Assembly: GCA_025201705.1 (NCBI GenBank) | Contig: MU616866.1 | Coordinates: 1 to 35,791 of the forward strand | Direction: 5' to 3' | Length of the DNA: 35,791 nt | DNA from: Dissophora ornata | Lineage: Eukaryota; Mortierellomycota; Mortierellomycetes; Mortierellales; Mortierellaceae | Shown here: in pieces, positions 9,728-15,900 of the stretch | How positions within the stretch are numbered: position 1 is the first letter of the stretch | Layout of the letters: every line of letters begins with the position of its first letter | Made by a program: the position numbers and the translations under genes | The notes under the pieces: generated by a model | The model's input: the letters and a program-made list of their open reading frames with translations, nothing else | Told to the model about the DNA's origin: nothing | Database searches by the model: none

Positions 9728-10674
9728 TACGATTTGCCAGATTTTGGTCATTCTTAGCATCCAGACATGCAAATTGATGAATATCGGAACTCATAGTGCA
9801 CTTTTTTAGCCTAGGCGGCTACCCGAATCCAAACACACCTTGCGCAATCAAAATATTCTTTTTAAAAAGTCTCCAGCAAGTCTCTATATTGGTAATAAAG
9901 AGATGAGGGCAAGCGTGGAGGAGCACCATGTCTTTGCTGCCCTCACGTGTTTTTTTTTGTGGGAAACAAAATTGAGGTTGTCTTCCCAGAAAACAGTGTT
10001 CCAGCAGCACAACCTCACACGCAGTTCGATGGAGCATCTTTGCCAATTTTAAACCTTGTTGATGAGCTCTGTGATATAAAGACGCCTGGCCGTCTACTTC
10101 AAATCGTCGAGCCGCAAACTTGGACATAGCAAATGCCCCCTTGAAAGCAGGTCGTCAAAGTATTGCTGCTCATTGGGGCCAGCCTTCAGTGTATTGCAGC
10201 GTCAATAAGGAGCACATTTCTATCATCTTCAAACGTTCACTTACGTTCCAGTTGAATACTTGAGAAATATAGTAAACAATATCGTCTGTGTGGTCCTGCT
10301 TCCGAACAGCGTAGTCTAGTGCATCTTCTCAAAGGTATCGTTTTCATCGAAAAAAATGAAGTCCAGCAGCGAGTTGACCTGATTGTCAGATTTGATTTGT
10401 AGGACATCAGAAAGGGTACGTTCAATTTCGACCTCCGACAGAATTAACAAGAACTTCTCCTTCTTCAATAAAGTCAGCGATCTGACTGTTGCTCCTTTGC
10501 GAACTCAGAGCACAAGTCGAAAATAGCTTATAAATATCAATAGACGGTCTATGAACTGGGAATATTTTTAATAGCGATAGTGGTGGGTTGTCTACTTTGT
10601 CTACAGATGAAAAAAAAAAAATGAACGAGCGAAACAAGAAAGAAAAGAAAAAAGTGTTGGAACACATCTATGTT
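9728..10674. other. Spacer with scattered coding fossils
   Basis: No intact gene is visible between the Crinkler-like remnant and the ERG25 stop. One protein-like fragment on the minus strand is listed separately. Another protein-like stretch appears at 9947-10129 on the plus strand, ending in a GRLLQIVEPQTW segment, while the opposite strand of the same DNA is also open (9819-10127). I cannot tell which, if either, was ever coding. A CACGTG core lies near 9946. Confidence 0.4.
10245..10438 (-). pseudogene. Unassigned gene fragment with a frameshift, ending at an intact splice donor
   Basis: Read on the minus strand, one frame gives SEVEIERTLSDVLQIKSDNQ and then SLLDFIFFDENDTFEKM before a stop. 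A second frame continues as ALDYAVRKQDHTDDIVYYI and then SQVFNWN. It ends exactly at a perfect GTAAGT donor (10244-10239). The composition is that of a folded protein rather than chance translation, and the donor suggests a former exon. The frame change lies near the TTTGAGAAGATGCACTA stretch. I do not recognise the family and see no partner exon that restores a gene. Confidence 0.3.
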
Positions 10675-12114
10675 TTACAATGCCTTCTTGGTGGCCTGAG
10701 CCTTGAGCTCACTCTCCTTTTTCTCCCTGTAGGCAAGGTACTTCTTGTTCGTTCCGAAGATGTGATCCCACCACCTGAAGCTCGTCGAGAAGTTGTTCGT
10801 GAAAGCCATGTGGTGGTAGTCGTGGTGCTCAGCGCCAGACCAGCCGGGCAACCAGTTGTGGGTCGACCAAGGGAAATCGTATCCAGAGTGAGCCTCAACG
10901 GCCTGGAAGAGACGGAGAGTCATCCAGGTCAAGGTCGTGATCAAGTGCAAATCACCCGAGAACCAGCACCAGATGAGAGGGCCACCGATGGTACCGGTAC
11001 CGAGAATGAGAACTTCAACAGGGTGGGCATATTCAGCAGCGAGACCGAAGGGAGCAGACCACTCGTGGTGGAGTTTGTGAATGTGCTTGTAGAAGGGTCC
11101 GTAGTGGAGTCCACGGTGAGCCCAGTAGTGGAAGAAATCCTCGAAGAGGAAGAACAAGAAGATCTGCATTGCCATCTTGGTCCTATGTTTTTGGGAAATG
11201 GAATATGCACACAAGTTTTCGTTAGGGTGTTTGTCACGGCTACATTTCATAAAGCGGGAAAAACAACAACATCGAACCGGAAGAAATGAGATTAAAATCT
11301 GCAGAAACTTACAGAGGAGGGAAAGGAACAGAGGAAATAGCCATGCCAAAGTAAACTGCGATGGGGTGGAATCCGACAATCATGGGCAACTCAAAGACGA
11401 AATGAGACAGCAACACATAGCGGAAGACCTTCCACTGGTTCTGGGCTGTGTTTTGGATCGTCTTCTGCTGGATCTTGTACTTTTGCAGGGAAGGCATCTG
11501 GTCTGCAATCAGGTAGGGAAGACAGCGCGTGAAGTAGATGATCTCGTGCGAGAGAAACAACAGCGCCAGCGTCACCAGGGCCTCGTTGCGTCCCTCAAAG
11601 AGGGACTGCCACTGGGTTTCTATGTAGGATGGTGTCGTCGTGAACGGAACCGTCGTATTAGACCTAGAGATAGGGAAACAGGTGAGAATATAGTTAGACA
11701 AAGTGCACCAGAGGTGGGATGATTTTTTTTGTATAGTGTCCGTTGAGTGTAGGGCAAAATAATCGAACCCCTGAAAATCGGATCTGCAAGATAAAGCATG
11801 CATTCCATAGAAATATTGACGATCAAGCTACTGGCAGCGTTGACTAGAGCGAACAGGGGCCAAGGTAAGATGCCAGCCAGGTTGTATATTGTACTCTTTG
11901 TCACACACAGCTAAGAGCGCTGTATCTGGCAGAGGTGGCGATCGCTCAATTGATCGAGGCTGGGGCCAACCGTTTCCAGCGCAGGTGTGCCATGGGTCCT
12001 CCTATTTCGGCGAGGAGATATTCCGGTGGGCGAAGGGTGTGGTGTGTGCGGTTGTCGTTCCTGGCCCTGAGAGTATGGCGCCGAAGGCGACGTGTGCTGG
12101 GTGTCTACTTACAT
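10675..12114 (-). CDS. ERG25: C-4 methylsterol monooxygenase (ERG25/MSMO1), start codon split by an intron
   Basis: This is the ER di-iron oxidase that begins removal of the sterol C-4 methyl groups in ergosterol synthesis, using electrons from cytochrome b5. Exons on the minus strand are 12114-12113 (coding AT only), 11663-11313 and 11182-10675 (286 residues; the yeast protein is 309, the human 293). Introns are 449 bases (GTAAGT..CTAG) and 130 bases (GTAAGT..TAG), with phases matching at both. The histidine clusters of the fatty-acid hydroxylase family are complete: HRGLH (140-144), HKLHH (153-157) and HDYHH (238-242), with AEYAHP between the second and third. Two hydrophobic regions precede them. 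The last four residues, KKAL, form a classic KKXX ER-retrieval signal. No ATG occurs in the 100 bases of leader upstream of the first donor. The only start that keeps the N-terminus is the one created by splicing, giving [19 protein letters not shown]. Confidence 0.93.
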
Positions 12115-12183
12115 GATGCCGCTTGTGATGAGGGGAGAGGGGGATGAGGAAAGTGATGAGAGATGATGAGCAGGAAGAACCCG

Positions 12184-12190
12184 TTTTATA
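12184..12190 (-). promoter_or_regulatory. TATA box of ERG25
   Basis: TATAAAA on the minus strand lies within the palindrome TTTTATAAAA (12184-12193), about 70 bases upstream of the split start codon. The leader between them is C/T-rich, which fits a short 5' UTR. Confidence 0.6.
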
Positions 12191-12693
12191 AAAGAAGCGA
12201 CAACTCGTCCCGCCCAGCACAGTCGTTCCTCAGAGCGCCAGTCTTCTCTCTCCTTCGCGGTGTGAGGTGATGTGGGATCAGCTCAGGCCGCGTTGGCCAA
12301 TCAGATCCCGGGGATAGGACGACACACACAAAAACAAGAAAAAAAACCCGCCAGTGGCTTTGGACGTGCTTTGCAACAATCCCATTTCGATAGCCTGATC
12401 TGGCAAGTGGTCAGGGCATACCAAGAACAGGGAACTCTCCTGCCCTGTCCAGCCGTGCTATTCGACCCGATGCCCTGCGGAATGGAGTGCATATCTGAAA
12501 ATAGAGGTCGGCCAAAGCCTGATCCAGTCTCGGCTGACACTATTAAGTTTGCTGGCGTCCATCGCTGGCTACACAGTGCATTCACATGCATGATATTCGC
12601 CTACCCATCCCCACTCTGTGCTGCGTGTCCCAAAATCACCCAAAAGAAGAGCCTGCACGGTCTCAAGCAGGAACAGGATCAGATCAGAATTAT

Positions 12694-12716
12694 ATCACGT
12701 GAGGAAGATCACCCGG
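12694..12716. promoter_or_regulatory. Palindromic E-box plus SRE-like half site
   Basis: ATCACGTGA at 12694-12702 contains the perfect palindrome TCACGTGA. Five bases later comes ATCACCCGG at 12708-12716. TCACGTG is the Cbf1/Met4-type site of sulfur and methionine genes. ATCACGTGA and ATCACCC are, respectively, the E-box and sterol-regulatory-element forms recognised by SREBP-type bHLH factors. Both adjoining genes, methionine-cycle MTHFR and sterol ERG25, are sensible targets. Binding is inferred only. Confidence 0.4.
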
Positions 12717-12995
12717 TCGCATATGCAGTGGCAGATAAGATCGGATTTCATGTGGCCCTGGCTCTCCCGCCTGGATGACTGTGTGCAATTCATAATTAAA
12801 AAAGAATAAAAGGCCAGTTGTTTATGTTCTTTGCTCCTTGCTACTCTCTCTCGCTTCCTCTCCCTTATCCCTAGTTCTACTCAGGACAGGAACCCCTCAT
12901 TCGCCCTTTGCGATCGCATTCTTCATTCACGCATTGCCTTCTTTTTTTTCTTTCTTTTTGCCTTATCTATTTCCTTTTACCAAACACCTTCAATC

Positions 12996-15900
12996 ATGAA
13001 GATCATTGATCGCATCAAGAAGGGCCAAGAGGAGGGCCGCCCCCTCTTCTCCTTTGAGTACTTCTCGCCCAAGACCGCCCAGGTAACCTCAGCTGCCGAC
13101 ACTGCTCGTCTTCTTCCCCTTTCCCTCTGTCGATGTTCTGCTTCGGTAGCTGTCCCTGTTACTCGGTTCATGATCGAAATCTATCGAATTTTGTGACTCA
13201 GCTCGTGAAAATGGGCCAAGAGGGCAAGAAAAGAAAACCTTGGATGAAGTGCCACTTTTCTGTGTTGCCCCCAACCAACAAAGAGGTTGAAAAGGAACTA
13301 CATGGAACACAGATCAATCGCCCTAAAAAGGGCCAGGGTCATGATCCTCATGGGCTTGAACTGAACCCCCGATGGATCCATTCTCGCCAGAGCAACCAGC
13401 ACCTGGAACGTCTTCAAGGCTCAACGTCAGAAAACATATCCCGTGTATGCTTTGCAGTGCGGGTGGATTCATGGGGTGTACATGGGCTCTGTGATTCTCT
13501 CGCCATCGAAAATACACTTCGCTGTCTCCCAATCTCTCCACAAGGGAATGGATCACAGACAGCAACGGACAGACACGGACGTTTTGACAACGGAAATCGT
13601 TCACCCACATGCAATGTTTGTTTGATCTTGTGCGCGATGAACATGGGATTTGAGAACAAGGCTAAACGGGCGAGGGATTGGATGGCGATGGAATATCAAC
13701 CTTCGTGCGTCCCCCTGAATCAAAACAAAGAGAGAATGCAAACTAACATTTGAGGTCGCTTCAACATTAGGGTATGGTCAACCTGCACGACCGTATCGAG
13801 AGAATGTGCTATCTCGGACCCGAGTTCATCGACATCACCTGGGGTGCTGGAGGTTCCCGCCCTGCTGCGACGCTGGAGGTTGTGTCGAATGCGCAGAAGG
13901 TGTACGGTGTTGAGACGTGCATGCACTTGATTTGCACCAACAACCCGACTGACAAGATCGACAAGGCCCTCAACGTAAGTCCTTTTCTCGTCGTCCCTCA
14001 CTCCTCCTTGACTCTTGGCTTTGTACACGTACACGTATCGGAAAACCTTGTTGGTTTGTTTGTAAATCTCCGCCTCTGTGGACTGGGCGCATTTGCTTAC
14101 TGAGAAAGGAACGTGGGTTCCTGTTGGCTGCGAAGATGTGGCGGACTGTTTCCTTCGTTACATCTGAAGAGATGAGGGGATATCCCCGGCTTTTCATTTG
14201 CTGGCGGGGTAATTGCCATGTGAGATGGAATGATGCGATATGGTGCAGCACCACTTAAAATCAGGAAAGAAAAATGGGGGAAGACCGTTGCTGCATGCAG
14301 CAAACTTCCAGGCCATTTAGGCTCTCATTTTTTTTCCTGACTGTGAGTCTTGACTCAAAACACACGGGCTACCAGTCTCCCAACCCCACGATTTTTTTTC
14401 ACTTTTATTACATTCCACTATTTCATGTGTTAGCCAAGGGATCAGAAATATCCCACTTTCCTGCAAATGCACAGACGCTTCGTCGGAGGGGTTTCAGACT
14501 TTCAGAGTCTGTGGGTTACACACACCGATCACCATAGCATATTTTCACCAAACAAGCTAGACTCGCCATAAACTTACCAACCTACTTTTCGCAATCAATA
14601 GGAGGCACGCGCTTGCGGCAACCAAAACATTCTGGCCTTGCGTGGAGACCCTCCTCACGGCCAGTCCGAGTGGACAGCCTGCGAAGGTGGATTGAACTAT
14701 GCGGAAGATCTCGTCCGCTACATCCGTAAGACCCATGGCGACTATTTTGGCATTGGTGTCGCGGGTTATCCCGAAAAGCACCCCGAGTCTGCCACGATGG
14801 AGGATGATCTGAAGTATCTGAAGGCCAAGGTCGATGCAGGTGCGGATTTCATTGTCACGCAGCTCTTCTTTGACGTGCCCATGTTCTTGGACTGGGTTAA
14901 GCAGTGTCGCGCCATCGGCATCAACTGTCCCATCATTCCCGGTGTGATGCCCATCCAGGCCTACGCCAGTTTCAAGAAGAACATTGTTGGCGTCAGCGTG
15001 CCCCAGTGGATTCTTGATGGTGTCGAGCCGATCAAGGTATGAAAGCAAAGGAGATGCTCCAATTTACTTTTGAAGATGAATTATACCTTGGTCCTAAAAT
15101 TTGCGCGTGAATTATTTTAATAGAACGACGATCAGGCAATCCGTGCGTTTGGTGTGGAGGTTGGAATCAAGATGACCCAAGAGCTTATCCAGGGTGGCGT
15201 GTGCGGCATCCACTACTACACCTTCAACCTTGAGCGCAGCACCCGCTTGATTCTCGAAGGCGCGGGACTTGTCAGCAAGACCGACTACATCAAGAAGAAC
15301 ATGCCTTGGCGCTCGAGCTTTGATGAGAAGCGCAAGGAGGAGTCTGTCCGCCCCATCTTCTGGTCCAACCGCGCAAAGTCCTACATTAGTCGCACTGACA
15401 ACTGGGACGAGTTCCCTAACGGTCGTTGGGGCGACTCTCGCTCTCCCGCATATGGTGACTTGGACCGCTATGGCGTCTACTTGAAGTACACGGCAGATGA
15501 AGCGCACCAGCACTGGGGATCGCCCAGTGATGTAACGGAGGTCTGCAAGTTGTTTGTGAAATACTGCCATGGCGAGACCTTGACGCTGCCCTGGAGTGAT
15601 CAGGCCCTGGCGCTGGAGTCAGGATCGATCATGGATCGTCTTATCGAGTTGAACTCGCTTGGATACTTGACCATCAACTCCCAGCCCGCGGTCAATGGTG
15701 CCAAGAGCGACGACAAGGTCTTTGGATGGGGACCCAAGGGCGGCTACGTCTACCAGAAGGTAAAAAAAGTGCAAAGAATTGATGGCACAAAGAGAGATTT
15801 AACAATGTAAATAGCTTTTTTACTGACCCACTGCTTCATTCGTGCTACGCATAATAGGCCTATTTGGAGTTCTTTGTGTCGCCGGAGACGTTGGAGAATC

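Follow-up and report, generated by a model that had tools for sequence, protein, structure and literature searches.

A predicted C-4 methylsterol oxidase gene of Dissophora ornata with an intron inside its start codon

Introns that disrupt the start codon (phases 1 and 2 of codon 1) are described as relatively rare in the consulted sections of a study on the phase-0 peak directly after the ATG (PMC1626468, BMC Genomics 2006). In Yarrowia lipolytica, 42 start-codon introns have been reported, their 5' splice sites following the A, the T or the G of the ATG (PMC13309789). According to the consulted sections of that work, splicing is most efficient for these introns, whose genes are also the most strongly and least variably expressed across 12 conditions; a figure legend in the same source places start-codon and ORF introns jointly above UTR introns. 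Upon retention, 383 of 561 5'UTR introns would make uORFs and 1426 of 1738 ORF introns have early stops, suggesting that retention generally costs a gene its product there (PMC13309789). Two further systems, seen in excerpts of their reports, concern the RNA and the reconstitution of the start codon. An AUGUAA hexamer in the 5' untranslated region of Arabidopsis NIP5;1 causes boron-dependent ribosome stalling and RNA decay (PMC11915504). The RETS reporter is a designed trans-acting ribozyme for plants, split at the U of AUG, in which splicing rebuilds the start codon and gates expression (PMC12363958). The consulted portions of PMC10182648, PMC12363958 and PMC10352661 do not deal with natural split starts; a printed example may have been missed elsewhere in the literature.

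We analysed a 35,791-nucleotide stretch of the Dissophora ornata genome (contig MU616866.1), referred to here as the window, which carries a gene named ERG25a on its minus strand. Its features are as follows.

12184 to 12190, minus strand: TATAAAA, taken from the meaning of the motif to be the TATA box of ERG25a; its first base lies 76 nt ahead of the A in the ATG.
12113 to 12114, minus strand: coding part of exon 1, AT, bases 1 and 2 of the start codon, with an A at -3 (ATC-ATG).
11664 to 12112, minus strand: intron 1, 449 nt, GTAAGT...CTATCTCTAG, phase 2 inside the start codon, at the same position as in the paralog.
12109 to 12114, minus strand: ATG TAA start-stop, in unspliced RNA only.
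11313 to 11663, minus strand: exon 2, in which the G at 11663 completes the ATG and is followed by TCT AAT ACG ACG.
11183 to 11312, minus strand: intron 2, 130 nt, GTAAGT...CATAG.
10675 to 11182, minus strand: exon 3 up to the stop codon, with the fatty acid hydroxylase domain (Pfam PF04116) inside.
11664 to 11803, minus strand: intron stretch from ATG 11803, with a frame open into exon 2, giving 46 further residues and an Arg if intron 1 is kept.
11664 to 11768, minus strand: 105-nt intron that the deposited model P0001 removes, with the donor GTTCGA, probably a gene-caller artefact.

With slashes marking the exon-intron borders, the minus strand reads ...ATCACAAGCGGCATCAT/GTAAGTAG...CTATCTCTAG/GTCTAATACGACG.... 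Intron 1 is of the canonical GT...AG spliceosomal type and lies between bases 2 and 3 of the ATG, as read from the sequence and as required by the deposited protein of the paralog. Removal of both introns yielded a joined CDS of 286 residues beginning with MSNTTVPF, in which a Pfam search found PF04116 with 79 bits. The interval 12300-12114 contains one ATG, the split one at 12114. These results bear out most of the anatomy proposed in an earlier sequence-only reading of the locus, namely an AT (12114-12113) before a GTAAGT donor from 12112, a G at 11663 opening exon 2, a 286-residue ERG25 after splicing, an ATG TAA in unspliced RNA (codons at 12114-12109) and no other ATG in the leader. The prediction that the start codon of ERG25a is made by splicing AT to G is well supported by the sequence.

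The best protein match of ERG25a was P0001, a D. ornata C-4 sterol methyl oxidase with 100% identity over all 286 residues. Among the matches listed, the nearest one outside the Mortierella group was the uncharacterized protein P0009 (63% identity over 99%); P0010, deposited as a C-4 sterol methyl oxidase, has 63% identity to ERG25a over 94%. The histidine boxes were visible in the alignment as HYWAHR, HKxHH and HHDYHH blocks. A PDB sequence search with ERG25a revealed no match at E 0.001. By its hydroxylase domain, histidine boxes and full-length homology, ERG25a is a predicted C-4 methylsterol oxidase.

Lying in phase 2 inside the ATG of a coding gene, intron 1 resembles the class in PMC1626468, although the consulted sections of that study contain no Mortierella-group example and no mention of a start-stop in unspliced RNA. 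It belongs to the same anatomical class as the Yarrowia introns, also in a fungus, whose efficient splicing and high, even expression are documented by RNA data. Furthermore, in the part of the report consulted, the Yarrowia class, from a distant fungus, pools split ATGs with introns after a whole ATG, and its statistics do not describe split starts only (PMC13309789). With the sister copy and an unrelated chaperonin gene built alike (see below), the start-codon intron of ERG25 appears to be an ordinary, if uncommon, arrangement of a known kind.

A second copy of the gene, ERG25b (contig C503), is 77% identical to ERG25a. Its start region reads CCAT/GTGAGT...CCAATTAG/GTCAAATACGACG, with a 93-nt intron and an AG/G TCA AAT ACG ACG junction. 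The spliced ERG25b model with a split start is the deposited protein P0006 exactly, in 294 of 294 residues, and the deposited model of the paralog therefore already has a split start codon. SNTT follows the junction in both copies and in the same codon phase. Unspliced ERG25b RNA reads ATG TGA, and there is an A at -3 as in ERG25a. No ATG was found inside the ERG25b start intron. The two start introns differ in length (449 vs 93 nt) and have common words of at most 7 nt, in a comparison of only two introns. An NCBIfam search with P0006 found no model at E 0.001, and a search with its residues 1-70 returned only P0006 itself; a scan of viral contigs yielded no DNA of relatives.

In a tree of 14 rows, the Dissophora a copy grouped with Entomortierella lignicola, represented by a shortened protein, leaving the Dissophora b copy outside with a support of 100/97. 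The grouping of Dissophora b with E. beljakovae was weaker (92/89), and the remaining branch order among the eight Mortierella-group rows was without resolution. The exclusion of Dissophora b from the pair of Dissophora a and E. lignicola suggests that the ERG25 copies parted before those genera did. In the simplest reading, the shared split probably predates the duplication of ERG25.

The upstream regions of the two copies were also compared. The sequence CTGATTGGCCA (12294-12304), presumably of the CCAAT-box type, is common to both in 11 of 11 positions, with an E value of 0.15. We likened ATCACCTCAC at 12271-12262 and ATCACACCAC upstream of the paralog to the SRE motif; with one mismatch each, and with three such sites in the whole window, they were rejected as too weak for regulatory evidence. 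From 12996 onward, a gene starting MKIIDRIKKGQEEGRPLFSFEYFSPKTAQ runs on the plus strand, divergent from ERG25a and with the start codons about 0.9 kb apart; it resembles a methylenetetrahydrofolate reductase gene.

Eight Mortierella-group proteins (seven named and one unnamed) were aligned. All but P0006, which begins with M-SNTT, are either shortened or have a different start. P0008 begins with M-TTP, near the expected start, and P0005 and P0007 start some 12 to 19 residues further in, according to which copy they are compared with. P0004 starts at the residue aligned with residue 35 of ERG25a, within the first hydrophobic stretch, and P0002 has a different long N-terminal extension. As a guess, the P0003 start M-Y-A-SNTT would fit an AT/GTAT donor, and the ...NR-NSTIPF of P0002 might likewise fit an AG/G ahead of NST. 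The scattered N-termini fit with gene callers missing a split start in the Mortierella group.

The deposited P0001 (297 aa) is an explicit gene model contrary to the split start. Beginning at ATG 11803 and excising the 105-nt intron 11768-11664, the window translation reproduced P0001 exactly. ATG 11803 might be the true start or a second one, used either as in P0001 or by reading through the last 140 nt of intron 1, with a longer N-terminus as the outcome. Besides the exact match obtained from this ATG, a donor at 11768 and the shared acceptor, the frame is open across the acceptor: keeping intron 1 and removing intron 2 gives a form of 332 residues, with 46 extra residues and an Arg before SNTT. 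The spliced ATG had been called the only one that gives a full-length ERG25, and this 332-residue frame, starting within the intron and in phase with exon 2, contradicts that claim. RNA retaining intron 1 would first present the AUG-UAA, then a 15-codon ORF at 11993 and, out of frame, an ATG at 11808, all ahead of ATG 11803. The GTTCGA donor is unlike those of the eight introns that we read (GTAAGT, GTGAGT, GTAAGC, GTATGT), the start intron of ERG25b offers no ATG, and it is exon 1 that the TATA box precedes. The extension of P0001 was present in none of the seven other Mortierella-group rows, being absent in P0002, P0003, P0006 and P0008, while P0004, P0005 and P0007 fall short of that region. 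Because of the poor donor, the paralog intron lacking an ATG and the missing extension in the rows that reach there, P0001 is probably a gene-calling artefact with a wrong N-terminus, and a start at ATG 11803 is regarded as quite unlikely. P0001 is listed on a contig of 40,532 bases, against 35,791 for the contig studied here, and may stem from another D. ornata assembly.

The split is found beyond the sterol genes. The gene for CCT6 (TCP-1 zeta) lies at 490-2700 of the first 6,000 nt of contig C17 (locus L017), with a 288-nt start intron at 492-779, and reads CATCATCAT/GTAAGT...AG/GTCAGGAGG (AG/G TCA GGA); its unspliced RNA contains AUG-UAA. The 538-aa product matched TIGR02347 with 868 bits, aligned from residue 6, and aligned with solved zeta chains in the PDB from residue 5. 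We know of no sterol link of this chaperonin subunit. The same AT/G split in CCT6 indicates that the layout is not confined to sterol genes.

A census of ANCATGTRAGT in the genome revealed 74 sites vs 77 for the reversed control, showing that the motif by itself means nothing and that the evidence is the homologous protein starting right after it, in two paralogs. The narrower pattern CATCATGTAAGT gave 6 sites vs 2 for its reversed control. The census covers only AT/G splits with an A at -3, a C at -1 and a GTRAGT donor. We inspected 73 of the 74 sites and judged 72, leaving out the site on C871 and L080, which ends about 180 nt past the site; L034 and L046 were judged on only about 340 nt of downstream sequence. 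Apart from the cases settled by homology, sites were judged with an approximate coding score, for which 43 open frames (46,788 bases) served as the training set, and 14 of them also by eye; Pfam was applied to five. Homology identifies at least three of the 72 judged sites (ERG25a, ERG25b and CCT6) as clear split starts, so that starts of this form are few. A split start was rejected for NAGLU (L050) and for a kinase tail (L057), where the intron lies within the gene. At three further sites, which may or may not be split starts, Pfam found WD40 repeats (L028), a galactosyltransferase (L045) and no family (L052).

The lack of enrichment of the motif would also be expected if the AT/G arrangement in ERG25a arose by chance and the real start lay elsewhere, for instance at a Met further along exon 2, and the deposited P0004, P0005 and P0007 do begin further in. 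However, ERG25a has its next Met only at residue 57, beyond a hydrophobic stretch, and chance does not readily account for SNTT at the junction of both paralogs in equal phase. We consider the absence of a split very improbable.

The sequence of the unspliced RNA follows from the donor. After AT, the G of the donor completes the ATG, and the second codon consists of T and bases 3 and 4 of the donor, so that GTAA gives ATG TAA, GTGA gives ATG TGA, GTAG gives TAG and GTAT gives Tyr. In the eight introns of ERG25a, ERG25b and CCT6, six donors are GTAA or GTGA and two are GTATGT; if the three start introns, towards which the census pattern is biased, are set aside, the share is 3 of 5. A start-stop is thus the commonest outcome expected of an AT/G split, though others are possible. 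As a candidate AUG-stop uORF, the element in ERG25a is missing from the spliced RNA model and present only with intron 1 kept. Since the AUG-UAA is set by the donor, it provides no independent clue to regulation.

The sequence-only reading had proposed a compact switch by which splicing is tied to the making of sterols. In such a switch, the sterol state would shift the retention of intron 1 and the AUG-UAA would trap or discard ribosomes, thereby setting the output of ERG25. The start-stop is present in both paralogs (UAA and UGA) with an A at -3 in each, and the reported effects of the NIP5;1 hexamer and the gating already engineered in RETS suggest that an effect of this kind could in principle occur. 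The likeness to NIP5;1 is the AUGUAA hexamer in a leader, here in a hypothetical RNA: in the excerpts consulted, the NIP5;1 element belongs to the 5' untranslated region, whereas that of ERG25a forms part of the splice donor and requires retention of intron 1 (PMC11915504). RETS likewise shares with ERG25a a start codon rebuilt by splicing, but ERG25a has a natural spliceosomal intron rather than, as the consulted text describes, a designed ribozyme (PMC12363958). The proposal is left unsupported by the findings at hand. The donor forces the AUG-stop, CCT6 has an identical layout with AUG-UAA, and the two paralog introns are unlike. The efficient splicing of Y. lipolytica start-codon introns, in genes with the highest and most even expression, also argues against it, as far as the consulted sections of that report go (PMC13309789). 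At E values up to 1, an Rfam search over 10400-13200 gave a single chance-level match, to NEAT1_2 on the opposite strand with 18.9 bits vs a cut-off of 60. In the consulted portions of the literature on ERG25 with intron retention, ERG25 was named once, in an expression table. A regulated switch appears quite improbable.

Taken together, we find it likely that ERG25a carries a constitutively spliced start-codon intron, probably old, and that the start-stop is not an evolved sterol sensor. Transcription of ERG25a would begin a short way past the TATA box. Joining of AT to G by splicing would then yield the initiator AUG of MSNTT..., and the enzyme would normally be made only from spliced RNA. 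Any unspliced RNA leaving the nucleus would present an AUG-UAA with an A at -3 and would be mostly unproductive. The start-stop would be a by-product of the donor consensus, acting by chance as a fail-safe. We give little credence to a further possibility, that the start-codon intron was kept in both ERG25 copies as an absolute splicing gate, with the AUG-stop coming first in unspliced RNA, to which ATG 11803 of ERG25a could add a longer variant made from RNA that is retained or started internally; if this were true, splicing efficiency would set the amount and the form of the ERG25 enzyme.

A start-codon intron such as that predicted for ERG25a has consequences for reading other genes. Every AT/G split with a GTAA or GTGA donor would turn the unspliced RNA into an AUG-stop RNA. 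The split in ERG25a calls one deposited gene model into question and draws attention to others. The same layout occurs in two D. ornata ERG25 copies, yet the start of P0006 is the expected one and that of P0001 is probably wrong, which suggests that gene annotation may be prone to overlook split start codons. Correct N-termini matter for expressing or tagging ERG25, an enzyme of the sterol pathway.
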